From Verrucomicrobiota bacterium (GTDB lineage Bacteria; Verrucomicrobiota; Verrucomicrobiia; JADLBR01): a stretch of 35,683 nucleotides of DNA. The notes beneath the pieces are model-generated. The model was not told where the DNA came from. It worked only from the letters and a program-made list of their open reading frames with translations, and searched no databases. The DNA is taken from NCBI GenBank assembly GCA_029560585.1, contig JAKQKQ010000108.1, positions 1-35,683 of the forward strand, read 5' to 3'. How positions within the stretch are numbered: the stretch's first letter is position 1; each line of letters starts with the position of its first letter. Both the position numbers and the translations under genes were made by a program. Below are positions 12,867-23,910 of this stretch, piece after piece.

Positions 12867-13451
12867 TCAGTTGGCCACCGCCAGCATCGCGGCGTCCACT
12901 TCCAGCGCCACGGCCCGCTGGAGCATGTCGACCGAAAGGCAGACCCGCGTCCTGTTGCGAAATCGCGCGATGATGCCCTCGATGCCGCGAAAGCGCCCCG
13001 TCGTGATGCGCACGCGCTGTCCCTCGGCAAGAAACGGATGGTCCTCCAAAGGCGCGCCCGCCTCCAGGGCCGACTGGATCGCGCCCATCTGGTGCAGGAA
13101 TAGCGTCTGGTCCACGACTGCGAGGATTCCCGCCGCATAGTCGGAACGAAACACCGCCTGCCGCTCCAGCGGCGCAAACGCCCCAAACGCATAGCCGGGA
13201 AACAGGGGCTTCTCGAACGTCACCCGCTTGCTCTTGTAGATCCGCAGGCTCGGACGCACCGGCAAATGCCTCGGGCACCGCGCGCGCTGAAACCACTCGT
13301 CCATCTTCTTCTCGCACCGCGGCCGCGTGTGAATCACCCACCAGATCGCCGTGCGCTCGGGACTTCCCTCGGCGTACCCACCATCGGACGCGACCGCGGG
13401 CAATACCGCGCCCGCCTGAAAACCCGCGCCCACGTCGAGGATCGCGCTCAT
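12867..13451 (-). CDS. NusG-family specialised antiterminator (RfaH/UpxY/LoaP-like)
   Basis: The 194-residue protein has an NGN domain starting WWVIHTRPRCEKKMDEWF (about 37-54), with PLFPGYAFGAF (about 82-92), and a C-terminal KOW motif GRFRGIEGIIARF (about 152-164). Paralogues of NusG travel with RNA polymerase and suppress termination in long operons; in polysaccharide clusters they are usually encoded at the head of the operon, as here. The ATG overlaps the stop of the GbsR-like gene as ATGA, so translation is coupled. The roughly 30 residues before the NGN domain are unusual and the true start may lie further in. A target such as an ops-like site was not recognised. Confidence 0.87.
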   Translation of the reverse strand: MSAILDVGAGFQAGAVLPAVASDGGYAEGSPERTAIWWVIHTRPRCEKKMDEWFQRARCPRHLPVRPSLRIYKSKRVTFEKPLFPGYAFGAFAPLERQAVFRSDYAAGILAVVDQTLFLHQMGAIQSALEAGAPLEDHPFLAEGQRVRITTGRFRGIEGIIARFRNRTRVCLSVDMLQRAVALEVDAAMLAVAN

Positions 13452-13930
13452 TTCAGCACCCTCTCCACGAACGGTAGAATCTTCGCCAGCTTCCGCTGGA
13501 CGTCCCTCAGCCGCCGCACCCGCTGCTTGAGGAAATCCCCATCCTCAATACCCGCCCCCATCGTCTCCAGCTCCGTCTCGACGTCCTGAATCTGCCTGCC
13601 CGCCGACTCAATCCGCGGCAAAATGAACCCCGCCAGTGTCTGCCGCAACAACGCCCGAAAATCCACGTTCGCCTCGTAGTAATCCCTCCGATCCCCCCGC
13701 TGCCAGATCCGCCGCACCGCGCCCCACGCCTCCAATTGCCGCACGCTCATCGACGCGTTGCCCTTGCTGATACCCAATCGATCCACCAGCTCCTGCAAAC
13801 ACAGCGGCTTCGGACTCAGATAAATCGCTACGTAAACCTGCCCCAGCGATCTCCCAAACCCCAATCGCTGCGCCGAACGCCCACCCAAATCCACCAAGCG
13901 CTCCCAGATCTGTGTATCCGAAGCGTTCAA
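13448..13930 (-). CDS. GbsR/MarR-family transcriptional regulator
   Basis: The 160-residue protein has a winged helix-turn-helix at about 28-85: SLGQVYVAIYLSPKPLCLQELVDRLGISKGNASMSVRQLEAWGAV, close to GbsR-type repressors (FGRSLGQVYVAIYLSP is the family-like N-terminal part). The C-terminal half is helical and probably dimerises. The start appears to be TTG at 13930, because no ATG or GTG fits in frame. That codon lies within a perfect 9-bp inverted repeat (13924-13943), which suggests autorepression. It overlaps the NusG-like gene by 4 bp. Together they probably control the operon running to position 189. Confidence 0.85.
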   Translation of the reverse strand: MNASDTQIWERLVDLGGRSAQRLGFGRSLGQVYVAIYLSPKPLCLQELVDRLGISKGNASMSVRQLEAWGAVRRIWQRGDRRDYYEANVDFRALLRQTLAGFILPRIESAGRQIQDVETELETMGAGIEDGDFLKQRVRRLRDVQRKLAKILPFVERVLK

Positions 13931-13943
13931 TATGTATTGAACG
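13924..13943 (-). promoter_or_regulatory. Palindromic operator over the start of the GbsR-like gene
   Basis: CGTTCAATATGTATTGAACG is a perfect 9-bp inverted repeat with a 2-bp centre. It covers the TTG start codon and lies 18 bp downstream of the TTGACA at 13962-13967 (minus strand), so a dimeric repressor bound here would block the promoter or translation start. The GbsR-like protein itself is the obvious candidate; that is inferred. Confidence 0.65.
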
Positions 13944-13961
13944 TAGAGGAAACGGTCAGAA

Positions 13962-13967
13962 TGTCAA
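13962..13967 (-). promoter_or_regulatory. Candidate -35 element of the polysaccharide operon
   Basis: TTGACA on the minus strand matches the sigma-70 -35 consensus and precedes the GbsR-like gene. The -10 position falls in the palindrome region and has no good TATAAT match at 17 bp. No Shine-Dalgarno sequence precedes the TTG start, so the transcript might be nearly leaderless. Confidence 0.4.
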
Positions 13968-13981
13968 GGGGTTGTGATCGC

Positions 13982-14006
13982 CTGGCACATGTTCGGCATG
14001 TGCCAG
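13982..14006 (-). repeat. Perfect 10-bp hairpin upstream of the regulator promoter
   Basis: CTGGCACATG and CATGTGCCAG flank a 5-nt loop. It lies between the epsI-like gene and the regulator, 14 bp from the TTGACA. It has no counterpart elsewhere in the window that I noticed. It could end transcription from the upstream operon or bind a regulator; no U-tract follows. Confidence 0.5.
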
Positions 14007-14060
14007 AAGGGCCGTTGTCGGAGCGCGGAACAGCCGCGATGGGTATGGAGGGACGTCGGC

Positions 14061-14313
14061 CTGAGGCTGTCTCAAAACAAGAGCGCTCCATGGGCCTGGA
14101 TCCTTCGAGGGACGTGCCGACTTGGTCAACTGACGGAGACGCCCCGCAAGATCTTGGGGATGCCATGCGGGCATCCTGGGGAGGGCCCGCGGCTTCGAGG
14201 GCCGGGTTGGCCCAGGTGTCGTGTGGCTGGTGAATCGCGGACGCCGGGGCCGGCGTCCCTCCCGGCGGAATCGGGCCACGCACGCCATCAGGGGGTTTTT
14301 CCGCGGGCTGCTA
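14061..14313 (-). repeat. Composite repeat with family C hairpin, downstream of the epsI-like gene
   Basis: The block contains CTGAGGCTGTCTCAAAAC (14061-14078), a module with GGAGACGCC...GGAGGGCCCGCGG (14136-14193) and GGGCCGGGTTGGCCCAG. The hairpin GGACGCCGGGGCCGGCGTCC (14239-14258) and the CCCGGCGGAATCGGGCC...GGGCTGCTAA tail follow. The same modules occur at 8513-8913, partly in a different order. The stop codon of the epsI-like gene (14311-14313) sits at the conserved GCTAA edge. The rest of the 380-bp gap holds the hairpin at 13982 and the regulator promoter. Confidence 0.8.
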
Positions 14314-14991
14314 AGGTTTTGCGTCAGGGATAACGCGGAGCCAGCGGGGAATGAAGGCTTGGATGGCGGCGTCGGCGGCCTCTACGGAGGGATGGATCGG
14401 GGTGGTGACGAGGATGTAGCACTGCTCGCGGCGCCGGTCGGTGCGAAGCCTGAAGTTGAGCGCGAGACGGGTGAGGATGCCCCTGCCGACCTCCAGCGTC
14501 GTGGATCCGCCGAGCAGATGCACGAAATAGACAAGCATCTCGGAGCCACCGGTCCGATAGAGGCGCCGGCCGAAAGGGACCTCGCGCTCCCCGACCCGCA
14601 GCGTCTGCTCGCGAATCTCTGTGGGGAGCGGCTCCGCCCCGGACGCCGTGAAACAGACATCGGGGGTGTGGGGCCCATACGACAGGTCGGCGCCCTTGCC
14701 GGTTTCCCATTTTGCGAAAAAGACACCGATGACGCGCCCGTCCGGGGCGATCGCGCTGCCGTTCTGAATCTCGGATTGCCCGTACTGCTGGCGCGCGCCA
14801 TCGGACACAGGCTCGTCGCGCCATTCGTAGCCGCCGATCGCTCGCGAGGCCGACACGTCCCACGTCTCGCCACCCCGGGAAAACAGGTTGAACACCCATA
14901 GCGGCGAGGTCACTGCCGCCACCAGGGCCAACGTCAGCACGAGGGCCACCGCTGCAGGAAAACGCCAAGGCCCATCCCCGCCACCGCTCAT
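14311..14991 (-). CDS. epsI: Exosortase-associated protein, EpsI family
   Basis: The 226-residue protein has one N-terminal membrane helix (about 11-34) and a periplasmic domain with HTPDVCFTASG (about 107-117), matching the HxPxxC signature of EpsI-like proteins that accompany exosortases. Further typical segments are LVYFVHLLGGSTT and a C-terminal amphipathic part. EpsI domains occur free or fused to exosortases and are thought to work in polysaccharide export or sorting, though the precise activity is not established. Its ATG overlaps the exosortase stop as ATGA, so the two are coupled. The stop codon lies at the edge of a composite repeat. Confidence 0.86.
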   Translation of the reverse strand: MSGGGDGPWRFPAAVALVLTLALVAAVTSPLWVFNLFSRGGETWDVSASRAIGGYEWRDEPVSDGARQQYGQSEIQNGSAIAPDGRVIGVFFAKWETGKGADLSYGPHTPDVCFTASGAEPLPTEIREQTLRVGEREVPFGRRLYRTGGSEMLVYFVHLLGGSTTLEVGRGILTRLALNFRLRTDRRREQCYILVTTPIHPSVEAADAAIQAFIPRWLRVIPDAKP

Positions 14992-15905
14992 GGCTTCTCC
15001 CCCGTCGCGGTCCCCGATGGCGGATCCTCCGTCGGCCGCCCCAGGAACTCCTCCACCCTGCGCAGCAACACCACCGCGATGCCAAGGCCCACGAGATTGA
15101 CGGCCAGAATGCTCCAGCCGGCCGTGTCATGCACCTTCTTGAGCTGCGCCAGCCCACCATAATGCGCCGACAGCGAGAGTATCAGCGTGCGGCAGATGTT
15201 TCCCGGGATTGCAATGAGCGGGGCAATCATCACCAGCAGGACGCGTGCCCCGAGGGAGTCGAGCAGTATCTTGCCCATCAGCAGCGCGACCATGATGCTG
15301 GACTGAAGCGAACGGATGCCGCTGCACGCCTCGTCGATGCCCACGGCACAGTCGCGCAGCTGAACGACATTGCCCTTCTGGAGCGCCGCGATGCCCATGA
15401 ATCCCAGCACCTCCACGTTCACCGCGGCCACGAATCGTTGGAGCCCCTGCGAGATCCCGTGAAGCAGCGAACCCGGCAGCGGAACGGCCACCAGCATGAA
15501 CATCAGGGGAAAAAGACACAGCCTCAGGCACCTCGCGCCCCGCGTGGCCAGGATCGTCGCCGCGACACCTCCCAATGTCGCCAAGGCCAGCATCCAGCTG
15601 AAGGACGCCGCCGGACTCACCAGCGACCGGTTCGCTTCCACGAGCGCGAAGATCGGCACCGCCAGCAACCAGGCCCACGGATAGAGGCGGGCGTCTGGCC
15701 TCCCGGGCCTCCGGATCTCATCCCAGTTGTCGTAGACCAGATACCCGGAAAGGAACGGGACCAGCCACCCAAAGTTATAATCCTCGAACTTCAGCCACCA
15801 ATACGACAAGTCCCACAGCAGCCAGCCCACCGCAAAGACAGCCGGCAGCCAAAGCAACGCCTCGGACCGGCGCCAGTAGGGCTTCTGTCCCGACTCCACA
15901 TTCAT
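14988..15905 (-). CDS. Exosortase (XrtA-type family membrane transpeptidase)
   Basis: The 305-residue membrane protein has about eight hydrophobic segments and the complete exosortase catalytic set: Cys194 in GIDEACSGIRSLQSS (189-203), Arg239 in GNICRTLILS (235-244) and His259 in KVHDTAGW (257-264). VPLPGSLLHGIS (141-152) is the usual preceding loop. Exosortases cut and re-attach proteins with a PEP-CTERM-like C-terminal signal, coupled to exopolysaccharide. No PEP-CTERM protein is encoded in the window, so its substrates lie elsewhere. The neighbours fit the known link between exosortases and polysaccharide clusters. The start ATG is 51 bp after the upstream kinase fusion gene. Confidence 0.93.
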   Translation of the reverse strand: MNVESGQKPYWRRSEALLWLPAVFAVGWLLWDLSYWWLKFEDYNFGWLVPFLSGYLVYDNWDEIRRPGRPDARLYPWAWLLAVPIFALVEANRSLVSPAASFSWMLALATLGGVAATILATRGARCLRLCLFPLMFMLVAVPLPGSLLHGISQGLQRFVAAVNVEVLGFMGIAALQKGNVVQLRDCAVGIDEACSGIRSLQSSIMVALLMGKILLDSLGARVLLVMIAPLIAIPGNICRTLILSLSAHYGGLAQLKKVHDTAGWSILAVNLVGLGIAVVLLRRVEEFLGRPTEDPPSGTATGEKP

Positions 15906-15956: not shown

Positions 15957-17096
15957 TCAAACCGCCCGTCGCGCCTTGACCCGCACCGCCCGGGGAATCG
16001 GCTTCGCCGAAACCACCACCAGATAACCCCCCCCACCTGCCCCAGAAACTTTCCACCCCACCGCGTCATCGCGGTACCGCGCGATCAATTCCTGGATCGT
16101 GTCGTTGACCATGTTCGGGAACATCGCGATCTGCGCCCCGAAGCCATCCCGGATCGCGCTCCCGAAGGCACCCAGATCCCGGGCCCGGATCGCCTCCCAG
16201 CATCGATCGGTCGCCTCGGCCAATCGCCGGGCACCCGCCGCATCGATCCGGGTGCCCTCCAGCACGCGAAAATCCGAGTGCCTCGGGCCCAGCGGCACAA
16301 AATTGAGCGCGTCCTCAACGAAACGCAGCGCCCCCTCGTCGAGGTTCCGATCGATCACATCCGGCCAATAGCGCCCCCGATACATGGAACGCGCCAGCCC
16401 CGCGCAGACGATTCCGATCGCGTCCTGGGACCCAGACACCTCCTCGGTGCCCGGCGGGTTGTCCCACGCAAACAGCATCTTGGCGAGCCGCTCCGGATCC
16501 CCGGCGGGCAGGCGCGGGCCCCAGAGGTCGATCGCCGCCCGACGCGTGCTGCTCGCCATGCCGCTGCGCTCGTTGAACTCGATGGTCGGCTCCAGCGAGA
16601 GCGTCACCACCGCCCCGGGATGATGCCGGGACACGAACGGCTGATCCAGCCACCCGCCGCACAGATCGATCCGGTACGGCATCTCATCCATCTTGCGCAG
16701 CGCCGTCGTCGAGCGGGCCGCCATGCCGGCCTCCGGCTGACGCCGCAAAACCACGTACTCCACCCCAAGATCCCGGCACAGCCGCTCCTTTTCCGGCGTG
16801 TTGCCCTCCTCGTTCACGACCAGATAATCGGGCCTCAGCTCCCGCATCTCCGCCTCGAAATCCAGCATGCCCGAACCCCGGGAAATGAAGGCCCTCTTCA
16901 CGGTCGCGATCGATCCCACCATGAAGAGCCTCTCCCGCTCGTTGGTCACCGGGACTCTCCCCTTCAGCTCGTGGATGGTCTGATCCGAACCCAGCGCCAC
17001 GTGCACGTCGCCAAACCGCGACGCCTCTTGAAAGAACGCGATGTGCCCGCTGTGCAGGAGATCGAAACAGCCGCTGACCAGAACCTTCTTCGCCAC
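15957..17096 (-). CDS. Cytidylyltransferase-GHMP kinase fusion
   Basis: The 379-residue protein has two domains. Residues 1-135 form a nucleotidyltransferase of the RfaE/TagD type: GCFDLLHSGHIAFF (9-22, with HSGH as the HxGH site) and RSTTALRK (128-135). Residues 139-379 resemble a sugar kinase of the GHMP family: YRIDLCGGWLD (141-151), SGSQDAIGIVCAGL (221-234) and KVSGAGGGGYLVVV (349-362). This parallels HldE, which joins a PfkB kinase to the same kind of nucleotidyltransferase, but with an unrelated kinase and the domains reversed. It probably phosphorylates a sugar and makes a nucleotide-activated form; the substrate is unknown. The GHMP part is short for that family. GTG start, preceded by GAGGGGG at 7 nt. 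Confidence 0.82.
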   Translation of the reverse strand: MAKKVLVSGCFDLLHSGHIAFFQEASRFGDVHVALGSDQTIHELKGRVPVTNERERLFMVGSIATVKRAFISRGSGMLDFEAEMRELRPDYLVVNEEGNTPEKERLCRDLGVEYVVLRRQPEAGMAARSTTALRKMDEMPYRIDLCGGWLDQPFVSRHHPGAVVTLSLEPTIEFNERSGMASSTRRAAIDLWGPRLPAGDPERLAKMLFAWDNPPGTEEVSGSQDAIGIVCAGLARSMYRGRYWPDVIDRNLDEGALRFVEDALNFVPLGPRHSDFRVLEGTRIDAAGARRLAEATDRCWEAIRARDLGAFGSAIRDGFGAQIAMFPNMVNDTIQELIARYRDDAVGWKVSGAGGGGYLVVVSAKPIPRAVRVKARRAV

Positions 17097-21190: not shown

Positions 21191-22203
21191 GCAAGGGTGA
21201 TTCTCTGCGTGTGGGCGTGCTGGGTTGTGGCCACTGGGGCCACAACTACGTGCGCGTTTTCTCCAATTTCCCGGAGGTCACCCTGGCCGGAGTCGCGGAG
21301 CCAATACCGGCGCGCCTGGCGGTCGCCTCGCGCACGGCGCCAGGGGCGTTCACCACCACCGATTACCGCGAGCTGCTCCGCGGTGGTCGCTGCGACGCCG
21401 TGGTCATCAGCACCCACGCCGCCACCCATCACCAATTGGCCCGCGAGGCCATCGAGGCGGGCCTCGACGTCTTGGTGGAGAAACCCCTGACCCTGTCAGA
21501 GGCCGACGCGGCTGACCTCGTGCAACGCTCCAAACAGGCGGGGCGCCTCCTCATGGTCGCCCACACGTTCCTGTACAACCCCAGCGTGTGGAAACTCAAA
21601 CAGCTCCTGCGGGAGGGAGTCCTGGGCGATGTCTATTACCTCAAGGCCCGGCGCACCCACCTCGGCATGATTCGGGAGGACGTCAACGCCGTGTGGGACC
21701 TGGCCCCGCACGACATCTCGATGTTCATCTACCTCCTCGACGAAGAGCCCACCCTCGTGCAGGCGCAGGCGCGCTGCATGCTCCGGAAGGGCCGCGAGGA
21801 CGTGGCATTCATCAACCTCCAGTTCCCCAGCGGCGTCATCGGCAACATCGTGGTCAGCTGGGCCGACTCGAACAAGGAGCGCTGGCTCGACATCGTGGGC
21901 AGCCGCGCCCGCGCCTCCTTCGACGACCTCAACACGGCAGAACCCATCCGCATCTTCTACAAGGGCGTCGCCGTCCCCGAACCCGGAGACGAGAACTTCG
22001 GCGAATTCAAGCACCTCGTGCGCGACGGCGAGATAGTCAGCCCAAAGATCGCCATGCAGGAACCCCTCAAGGTGCTCTGCGAGGATTTTGTCGCCTCGAT
22101 CCGCGAGCGGCGAGCGCCGGTCTCCGACGGCGAACTCGGGCGCAAGGTCGTGTCGGTGCTGGAGCGCATCGACCGGACCCTCGGCAAGGCAACCCCACCC
22201 TGA
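21187..22203 (+). CDS. wbpB: Gfo/Idh/MocA sugar oxidoreductase (WbpB/WlbA-like)
   Basis: The 338-residue dehydrogenase has the Rossmann GVLGCGHWGHNYVRVF (10-25), the family EKP (98-100) and DLAPHDIS with H175-D176 in the active-site region. WbpB-type enzymes oxidise position 3 of UDP-GlcNAcA with NAD, giving the 3-keto sugar for a WbpE aminotransferase. The start is GTG at 21187, overlapping the previous stop. The next two genes are an acetyltransferase of WbpD type and an aminotransferase of WbpE type, which together suggest UDP-2,3-diacetamido-2,3-dideoxyglucuronate synthesis. WbpA, which would make UDP-GlcNAcA, is not in the window. The assignment rests mainly on the neighbourhood. Confidence 0.85.
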   Translation: MSKGDSLRVGVLGCGHWGHNYVRVFSNFPEVTLAGVAEPIPARLAVASRTAPGAFTTTDYRELLRGGRCDAVVISTHAATHHQLAREAIEAGLDVLVEKPLTLSEADAADLVQRSKQAGRLLMVAHTFLYNPSVWKLKQLLREGVLGDVYYLKARRTHLGMIREDVNAVWDLAPHDISMFIYLLDEEPTLVQAQARCMLRKGREDVAFINLQFPSGVIGNIVVSWADSNKERWLDIVGSRARASFDDLNTAEPIRIFYKGVAVPEPGDENFGEFKHLVRDGEIVSPKIAMQEPLKVLCEDFVASIRERRAPVSDGELGRKVVSVLERIDRTLGKATPP

Positions 22204-22213
22204 TCCCCGCACC

Positions 22214-22810
22214 ATGCCCAAATTTTTCGCACACCCGAGCGCGCTCGTGGAAGCGGCGACCATCGGCGCAGGCACCCGCATCTGGGCCTTCGCCCACGTC
22301 ATGCGGGGCGCCGTCGTCGGCCCGGACTGCAACATCGGGGATCACGCGTTCATCGAGGGGGGCACCGTCATCGGTCGGGGCGTTACGGTGAAGAATGGGG
22401 TGTGCCTGTGGGAGGGCGTCACGATCGAAGACCATGCATTCCTCGGCCCCTGCTCGGTGTTCACCAACGACCTCCTGCCGCGCAGCCCGCGGGCACCATC
22501 CGCCGCGGATCGATACGCGGGCAAGGCGTGGCTTGTGAAGACAAGGGTCTGCGAGGGCGCTTCGGTCGGCGCAAACGCCACCATCCGCTGCGGCGTGACG
22601 CTCGGCCGCTACTGCATGGTCGGCGCCGGAAGCGTCGTCACCAGGGACGTTGCGCCTTTCACGCTCGTCTCGGGCAATCCCGCCAGGGTCATGGGCCGCG
22701 TCAGCATGGAGGGGCGACGGCTGCGCCGGGCCGGTGGCAAGTGGGTCGATCCCGACAGCGGCCGACTGTACCGCTTTCGCGGCGACGAGATTCTGGAGTG
22801 CCCGAAATGA
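22214..22810 (+). CDS. wbpD: Left-handed beta-helix N-acetyltransferase (WbpD-like)
   Basis: The 198-residue protein is built of hexapeptide repeats from about residue 5 to 155: HPSALVEAATIGAGTRIWAFAHVMRG, NIGDHAFIEGGTVIGRGVTVKNG and NATIRCGVTLGRYCMVGAGSVVTRDV. In the WbpD/WlbB subfamily it acetylates the 3-amino group formed by WbpE, using acetyl-CoA, and works as a trimer. A short C-terminal extension carries KWVDPDSGRLYRF, common in this subfamily. The ATG at 22214 comes 10 bp after the oxidoreductase, and its stop overlaps the start of the aminotransferase as ATGA. Confidence 0.9.
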   Translation: MPKFFAHPSALVEAATIGAGTRIWAFAHVMRGAVVGPDCNIGDHAFIEGGTVIGRGVTVKNGVCLWEGVTIEDHAFLGPCSVFTNDLLPRSPRAPSAADRYAGKAWLVKTRVCEGASVGANATIRCGVTLGRYCMVGAGSVVTRDVAPFTLVSGNPARVMGRVSMEGRRLRRAGGKWVDPDSGRLYRFRGDEILECPK

Positions 22811-23910
22811 AGGTCCCATTCTTCGATTTATCGCGCCAGCACCGCGCCCTGGCGTCGGAACTTGAGGCGGCCGTGCGGCCCGTCATCGAGAGCGGTGCCT
22901 TCATCCTGGGCCCCGAGGTCGCCGCCTTCGAGACGGATTTCGCCGCATTCTGCGGATGCCGACATGCCGTGGGCGTCGCCTGCGGGCTGGACGGCATCAA
23001 GCTGGCACTCCGCGCGCTGGATATAGGTCCCGGTGACGAGGTCATCACGGCCGCGAACACCTTCATCGCCACGGCGTTCGCCATCTCGTCGGCCGGCGCC
23101 ACGCCCGTCCTCGTCGATATCGATCCCGATACCTTCAACCTGGATCCCGCCAAGGCCGCCGCCGCCGTCACGCCCCGCACGCGCGCCCTCATGCCCGTGC
23201 ACCTCTATGGCCAACCCGCCGAAATGAAACCCCTGCTCGCCCTGGCGCGCAAAAAAGGTCTCCATGTGATCGAGGACGCCTCGCAGGCGCATGGGGCGCG
23301 CTATCGCGGCACCCGCGCGGGCTCGCTCGGGGCAATCGGCGTGTTCAGCTTCTACCCCGCAAAGAATCTCGGCGCATTTGGCGATGGCGGACTCGCCACG
23401 ACGAGCGACGAAACCCTCGCCCGCAAGATCGCGACGCTCCGCAATTACGGTTCGATCGTGAAGTATCATCACGATCTCATGGGCGAAAACAGTCGCCTCG
23501 ACACGGTCCAGGCCGCCATCCTGCGCGCCAAACTCCGGCACCTCGACGCCTGGAACGCCGCCCGTCGCCGCCTCGCCGCCCGCTACGAGGAACTCCTCCG
23601 CGGCGCGGGCGACCTCGTCCTTCCAAAACCACCACCCCACCTCGAGCACGTCTATCACCTCTACGTCGTGCGCACCCGGAGGCGCGACGCGCTCCAGAAA
23701 TTCCTGACGGAACAGGGCATCGGCTGCATGATCCACTATCCCGTTCCCATCCACCTGCAGAAGGCCTACCAAGGCCATCCGTGGAAACCCGGCCAGTTCC
23801 CCATCACCGAACAGTTCGCCGGCGAAATCCTCTCGCTCCCCCTGTTTCCAGAACTGACCGATTCGGAACAAGAATGCGTCGCGGAAACCGTCGGCCGCTT
23901 TTTCCGGTGA
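22807..23910 (+). CDS. wbpE: DegT/DnrJ/EryC1/StrS sugar aminotransferase (WbpE-like)
   Basis: This PLP enzyme of 367 residues begins MKVPFFDLSRQH and shows GLDGIKLALRALDIGPGDEV (60-79), EDASQAHGA (156-164) with D157 and Q160 for PLP, and SFYPAKNLGAFGDGG (181-195) with K186 as the Schiff-base lysine. NYGS and DTVQAAIL are further family marks. WbpE aminates the 3-keto sugar made by WbpB, using glutamate. The translational overlap with the WbpD-like gene supports a shared pathway. The order here is B-D-E. Other keto-sugars cannot be excluded. Confidence 0.93.
   Translation: MKVPFFDLSRQHRALASELEAAVRPVIESGAFILGPEVAAFETDFAAFCGCRHAVGVACGLDGIKLALRALDIGPGDEVITAANTFIATAFAISSAGATPVLVDIDPDTFNLDPAKAAAAVTPRTRALMPVHLYGQPAEMKPLLALARKKGLHVIEDASQAHGARYRGTRAGSLGAIGVFSFYPAKNLGAFGDGGLATTSDETLARKIATLRNYGSIVKYHHDLMGENSRLDTVQAAILRAKLRHLDAWNAARRRLAARYEELLRGAGDLVLPKPPPHLEHVYHLYVVRTRRRDALQKFLTEQGIGCMIHYPVPIHLQKAYQGHPWKPGQFPITEQFAGEILSLPLFPELTDSEQECVAETVGRFFR

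Follow-up and report, generated by a model that had tools for sequence, protein, structure and literature searches.

What kind of enzyme results when a nucleotidyltransferase (NTase) is fused to a GHMP-type sugar kinase, and which sugar would such a protein activate? The question is raised by a gene in a stretch of 35,683 nucleotides (the window; contig JAKQKQ010000108.1 of assembly GCA_029560585.1) from a Verrucomicrobiota bacterium. The features discussed here are listed below; FKP is the Bacteroides enzyme used for comparison, and the rows are those of an alignment of the 80 best relatives.

15957 to 17096, minus strand: whole NTase-GHMP kinase fusion gene, an open reading frame of 379 aa with a GTG start
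16692 to 17096, minus strand: NTase domain (residues 1-135) of TagD/RfaE (HxGH) fold, from PF01467, TIGR00125 and model matches
17043 to 17054, minus strand: HSGH catalytic motif (residues 15-18), invariant in 80 of 80 rows
16704 to 16715, minus strand: RSTT motif (residues 128-131), with R in 79, S in 79, T in 77 and T in 76 of 80 rows
15960 to 16691, minus strand: predicted shortened GHMP kinase domain (residues 136-379), from fold matches to WcbL and FKP and a weak PF08544 match
16644 to 16673, minus strand: kinase motif 1, RIDLCGGWLD (residues 142-151), from an ungapped alignment to FKP 589-619
16569 to 16589, minus strand: residues 170-176, the apparent site of about 86 missing FKP residues, from the GGWLD-to-loop spacing
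16542 to 16568, minus strand: putative phosphate loop, RSGMASSTR (residues 177-185), likened to FKP 712-720 by motif
16422 to 16436, minus strand: SGSQD (residues 221-225), from a profile alignment to FKP, with G, Q and D invariant in 80 of 80 rows
16023 to 16046, minus strand: kinase motif 3, SGAGGGGY (residues 351-358), from alignment to FKP, with G352 to Y358 invariant in 80 of 80 rows

The open reading frame is a real gene and is under purifying selection. Its orthologue in a genome of the same genus is 85% identical and adjoins the same prephenate dehydratase, and comparison of the two gave a dN/dS of 0.11 overall (0.07 for the NTase and 0.13 for the kinase). The fusion family spans several phyla and has no dedicated model in the libraries scanned, where no full-length NCBIfam match to the fusion was found and the only matches above cut-off were at the domain level. 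A species-genome collection yielded at least 594 matching stretches, at least 525 of them encoding relatives, and the best 80 were analysed. The complete fusion of about 380 aa is present in 79 of these, mainly from Chloroflexota, Bacteroidota and Ignavibacteriota; the remaining one is truncated where its contig stops. Relatives from isolates include those of Pedobacter sp. SYSU D00535 (L065) and Desertivirga (L095). Among 93 genomes searched, the bacterium's own included, 90 gave some match, mostly to single NTase domains, and the full-length fusions among the matches listed belonged to its own genome and the same-genus genome. An even draw of 247 Bacteroidota genomes contained four with a match, the centre genome included, and no record in the plasmid and phage collections covered 80% of the fusion protein. 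A tree built from 80 proteins places the window gene and its same-genus orthologue within a group of largely chloroflexotal members (31 rows, support 99/97), a placement that suggests, without proving, transfer.

The N-terminal half is a HIGH-type nucleotidyltransferase of the TagD/RfaE superfamily, on the evidence of its profile matches, its HxGH and (R)STT motifs and its fold. It matched PF01467 with 40.1 bits (cut-off 21; E 5e-10) and TIGR00125 with 52.9 bits (cut-off 27.7). In an AlphaFold2 model built from 80 sequences (mean pLDDT 89.7, pTM 0.68), this domain resembled TagD (1coz; Z 17.2, rmsd 2.1, 125 residues aligned), the Fom1 CyTase (5x3d; Z 16.7) and HldC (5xf2; Z 15.2). Loss of HxGH in orthologues was looked for, and the motif was kept in all 80. 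HldE likewise joins an NTase of this superfamily to a sugar kinase, but the HldE kinase is PfkB-type and N-terminal, whereas the kinase here is C-terminal and of GHMP fold. The fusion protein had no PfkB match, and the HldE-type models scored far below their cut-offs (NF008454, 40 versus 521 bits; TIGR02199, 50 versus 181.5 bits), in agreement with the initial annotation, which had set the protein apart from HldE.

The C-terminal half is predicted from the model to be a GHMP kinase fold, although by sequence it is a weak one: PF08544 gave 18.2 bits, under its 21-bit cut-off, and PF00288 (GHMP N) had no match on the fusion protein. The top structural match of model residues 135-378 was WcbL (4usk; Z 21.8, rmsd 2.9, 238 aligned), and the kinase domain also matched FKP (9iip; Z 20.1, rmsd 2.8, 227 aligned) and the WcbL/HddA-type structure 3k85 (Z 18.1). 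A structure without a kinase fold was thus looked for by prediction, and a GHMP kinase was found; open reading frame, profiles and structural matches together bear out the domain arrangement first proposed. The Z scores of WcbL and FKP lie less than 2 apart, too close for the fold to indicate the sugar. In a sequence search of the PDB, the best matches of the kinase half were to FKP. The WcbL/HddA heptokinases share the GHMP kinase fold, but they are separate proteins, have 306-345 residues in structures against about 243 here and partner with a different NTase.

Motif 1, the phosphate loop and motif 3 of GHMP kinases are all present in the kinase domain. Besides HSGH, the residues R142, W149, D151, N213, G222, Q224, D225, G352 and A353 to Y358 are invariant in 80 of 80 rows, as is each of the loop positions R177, S178, G179, M180, S183 and R185, and residue 212 is acidic throughout (D in 40 rows, E in 40). 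In FKP, D601, T602, Q761 and D762 touch the fucose hydroxyls, with W599 stacked against the ring; D762 has been proposed as general base, R592 serves to stabilise the transition, and phosphate and metal are bound by a loop (712-720) that includes Ser719 (PMC11982464). An ungapped alignment equates R142, W149 and D151 with FKP R592, W599 and D601, a profile alignment equates G222, Q224 and D225 with G759, Q761 and the general base D762, and A353 aligns with A900. Five of the six FKP fucose-site residues (R592, W599, D601, Q761 and D762) are therefore kept in 80 of 80 rows, and the sixth, T602, is Q152 in all 80. The acidic residue 212 was likened to FKP E751 by eye. A global hhalign run of the kinase against FKP placed a large gap poorly and a local run covered the second half only; since the gap was not sensibly placed, the phosphate loops are equated from their motif and from the subsequent helix of the model.

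The gene neighbourhoods of the relatives carry a fucose signal. They were drawn from 80 loci with a mean length of about 11.5 kb, those at contig ends counted in, with neighbour representatives named by NCBIfam/Pfam and score thresholds of our own. The fucose permease FucP was found in 16 loci, GH29 alpha-L-fucosidase in 13, FucI in seven, FucU in eight, a RhaM-type mutarotase in 23, and L-fuculokinase FucK and L-fucose dehydrogenase in one each. At least one of these seven is present in 35 of the 80 loci, or in 41 once GDP-sugar epimerases and dehydratases are added; 45 of the 80 have none of the counted fucose genes within the DNA examined. Of 46 loci, 10 had a GH29 gene, where chance would give 0.48 on the basis of GH29 gene number and genome size. 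In six Bacteroidota loci (L077, L081, L086, L094, L104 and L110), a RhaM mutarotase is itself fused to the N-terminus, giving three-domain proteins of about 595 aa; in L077, the one scanned, the domain matched PF05336 with an E of 1e-20. Unfused RhaM-type genes adjoin the fusion in other relatives. As mutarotases act on free reducing sugars, the first step of the fusion enzyme is expected to take place on a free sugar.

The window gene itself has a prephenate dehydratase and an exosortase gene as neighbours, with no adjoining fucose gene. Next to the exosortase (14988-15905) are genes for a DUF3485/EpsI-like protein (14311-14991), a MarR-type regulator (13448-13930) and an UpxY/RfaH-like antiterminator (12867-13451), and the whole of 12867-15905 sits within a cluster of glycosyltransferase and sugar-nucleotide genes. 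Farther along (21211-23910), genes for a Gfo/Idh/MocA dehydrogenase, a hexapeptide transferase and a DegT aminotransferase lie in a row, an arrangement that we take to resemble diamino-sugar (Wlb-type) pathways.

From the combination of domains, the initial annotation had suggested a route to an activated sugar, perhaps a heptose or another polysaccharide precursor, and had pointed to the exosortase genes next to it. Activation of a heptose, or of an unrelated sugar for polysaccharides, in connection with the exosortase system is consistent with the exosortase/EPS cluster in the window, with HldC among the structural matches of the NTase and with the heptokinase WcbL as the top match of the kinase, its Z score within 2 of that of FKP. 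Such a role appears very improbable, however, when the family is considered. A survey of co-occurrence detected relatives of the exosortase at 14988-15905 in none of the 80 loci (E 1e-5, among gene calls); these loci hold fucose genes instead, and the full-length HldE model NF008454 fails by the margin given above. A heptose is not supported; context, domain fusions and binding residues point towards L-fucose or another L-galacto sugar. In the open-licence PMC literature, no description was found of a GHMP kinase-nucleotidyltransferase fusion for heptose or of a bifunctional GHMP kinase/cytidylyltransferase for a nucleotide sugar.

That the protein activates a sugar, as first proposed, is most likely correct. 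We consider it probable that the fusion is a bifunctional L-fucose-activating salvage enzyme, parallel to FKP and built on a different NTase. The GHMP domain would phosphorylate the anomeric hydroxyl of free L-fucose, or of a close L-galacto sugar, and the TagD-fold domain would then move a nucleotidyl group onto the sugar-1-phosphate; both the substrate and the order of these steps are inferred. The product would be an NDP-L-fucose for cell-surface glycans. The proposed overall reaction, the kinase fold and the fucose-contact residues are shared with Bacteroides FKP, but FKP is a protein of 949 aa that keeps its adenine pocket and carries a PF07959-type NTase, which is absent here; the full-length FKP model NF009948 gave the fusion 43.2 against 721 bits. 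The bacterium's own genome had no match to PF07959 (the FKP pyrophosphorylase), and GDP-fucose synthase was not over its cut-off there (best score 285 versus 500 bits, which may represent a divergent one). PF07959 was over cut-off in none of 48 fusion genomes. An avoidance of FKP by fusion genomes was considered and dropped: only two of the 247 drawn Bacteroidota genomes carry PF07959, and this rarity makes its absence from fusion genomes uninformative.

A precedent for the two-domain plan exists in Amuc_1591 of Akkermansia. Inhibition of Akkermansia by D-arabinose is relieved by L-fucose or mucin, and 12 D-arabinose-resistant mutants all had lesions in Amuc_1591 (V176G, G326E or a frameshift); on these genetic grounds the protein, whose gene is followed by a MurJ gene, was proposed in 2026 as a fucose-nucleotidyltransferase (PMC13313206). 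The section of that study devoted to the gene mentions neither the missing adenine segment discussed below nor homologues in other phyla (PMC13313206). Amuc_1591 resembles the window protein in having a TagD/RfaE-type NTase followed by a GHMP domain, a shortened kinase and a link to fucose. It differs in its length (363 aa), in its loop (SGLGGSG versus SGMASST) and in its MurJ-like neighbour, and the identity of about 37% seen in Akkermansia-like genomes is confined to the NTase and motif 1. In phmmer comparisons, residues 2-185 were aligned (to 194 in two rows), together with weak C-terminal scraps. Judged by these alignments, Amuc_1591-type proteins appear to be distant relatives of the window fusion. 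Six loci (L025-L030) encode 363-aa proteins and a seventh (L024) has a 410-aa open frame holding the same 363 aa; V176 and G326 are present in all four proteins checked (L024, L025, L028 and L030), and in the L024 genome the Amuc_1591 homologue is followed by a gene that was identified by eye as MurJ-like (L119).

Which nucleotide the NTase would use is suggested by neighbouring genes. Relatives of GDP-mannose 3,5-epimerase lie beside the fusion in nine of the 80 loci (L040, L041, L042, L043, L052, L055, L060, L071 and L108; match to 2c59, E 2e-77), Fcl-like genes in three and Gmd in two. GDP is most likely the nucleotide, as can be inferred from these GDP-sugar enzymes adjoining several relatives and from an epimerase of this type at the start of the unfused system described below. 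Known TagD-fold enzymes use CTP or ATP, and we know of no TagD-fold guanylyltransferase; no mention of CDP-fucose or ADP-fucose was found in the open-licence PMC literature. If the epimerases act on GDP-L-fucose, their putative product, from stereochemistry, would be GDP-D-rhamnose.

The bacterium's own genome also holds a second, unfused system: on contig C272 (L036, 6917-10089), genes for an epimerase, a short kinase 39% identical to the fusion kinase, a tandem NTase and an RbsD/FucU-like protein lie in a row, and a further example is found in L038 (3386-6497). In 12 of 12 tandem NTase proteins examined, the first domain lacks HxGH and the second has HSGH. The epimerase accompanies the unfused kinase/NTase operon in nine of 12 Verrucomicrobia loci; of the other three, L124 is cut off where its contig stops, and no epimerase was seen in L127 or L132. 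Plant GDP-mannose 3,5-epimerase makes GDP-L-galactose, and the presence of its homologues at both the fused and the unfused loci could mean that L-galactose, or some other L-galacto sugar, is the natural substrate in place of L-fucose. We regard this as distinctly unlikely, given that FucP, GH29, FucI and FucU are commoner beside the fusion. By analogy with FKP W599, W149 would be stacked against the C4-C5-C6 face, which does not in itself exclude L-galactose.

The kinase domain raises a further question, that of the phosphate donor. In FKP, the ATP base is modelled against D644, M645, P666, I669 and L722, the first four of which (pocket 644-669) sit between motif 1 and the phosphate loop (PMC11982464). 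The spacing from GGWLD to the phosphate loop is 25 residues in all 80 fusion rows, against 111 in two FKP sequences, in keeping with the initial remark on a short GHMP part. Eleven kinase domains of a further alignment, A1 (two from fusions and nine unfused), have a spacing of 25 or 28, and seven Akkermansia-type sequences one of 29-30. By this measure, about 86 residues including FKP's adenine pocket are absent in 80 of 80 rows. As for the ATP-binding residues, whose loss in orthologues had been looked for, the phosphate loop is kept and the adenine-pocket segment is missing from all. Read from the alignments, the kinase retains its sugar site and the positions for phosphate chemistry without an adenine pocket, and ordinary ATP-dependent kinase activity is doubtful because the adenine-binding segment is missing.

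One consequence could be a GHMP domain that has ceased to act as a kinase and instead holds a sugar-1-phosphate made elsewhere, presenting it to the NTase. Such a holder would explain a domain that lacks the adenine-holding segment of FKP in all 80 rows and retains the contacts to the anomeric phosphate (the loop and A353). It is nevertheless rather unlikely: D225, R142, Ser183 and the acidic residue 212 are kept in 80 of 80 rows, which is more than a holder seems to need, and the mutarotase fusion implies a free sugar as substrate. Further, all 12 Akkermansia suppressors fell in one gene, whereas with a holder some of them might have been expected in a separate kinase; from this we consider both steps to be favoured in the Amuc_1591-type protein.

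If the domain is a kinase acting on L-fucose, as we favour, the donor may be other than ATP. R177 and R185 flank the phosphate loop and are invariant also in the eleven A1 kinase domains, whereas four canonical phosphate loops compared have no basic residue at these places. Akkermansia-type sequences keep R177 in part and R185 not at all, so the sign of paired arginines does not extend to them. In TM0415 of the ribokinase family, the use of pyrophosphate as donor goes together with added basic residues and partial occlusion of the ATP pocket (PMC5931981). TM0415 is thus a precedent for a sugar-kinase-family enzyme with a pyrophosphate donor, but its fold is that of ribokinases and not the GHMP fold, for which such a donor is hypothetical here; no report of a pyrophosphate-dependent GHMP kinase was found in the open-licence PMC literature. 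We tentatively raise the possibility that the GHMP domain no longer uses ATP, and that its donor for the phosphorylation of L-fucose is pyrophosphate, or some other phosphate without a nucleotide, the pyrophosphate coming from the fused NTase. The NTase step would yield pyrophosphate, which the kinase would reuse, such that a single NTP would suffice to activate the sugar (fucose + NTP -> NDP-fucose + phosphate). Pyrophosphate would be bound by R177 and R185 where the phosphates of ATP sat, and the adenine lobe would have been lost as being of no further use.

The retention of catalytic positions together with the loss of the adenine segment makes the identity of the phosphate-donating molecule a pointed biochemical question. 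The Akkermansia candidate of 2026 gains a wide family with genomic context, for which L-fucose is the predicted substrate. In the bacterium's own genome, one FucP was over cut-off and 21 GH29 matches were counted, with 28 in genome G001, numbers that suggest fucose-rich glycans as food. Bacteria are known to activate L-fucose by way of FKP and by the Gmd/Fcl route; if the proposed reading is true, the fusion would represent a second, unrelated route to its salvage.
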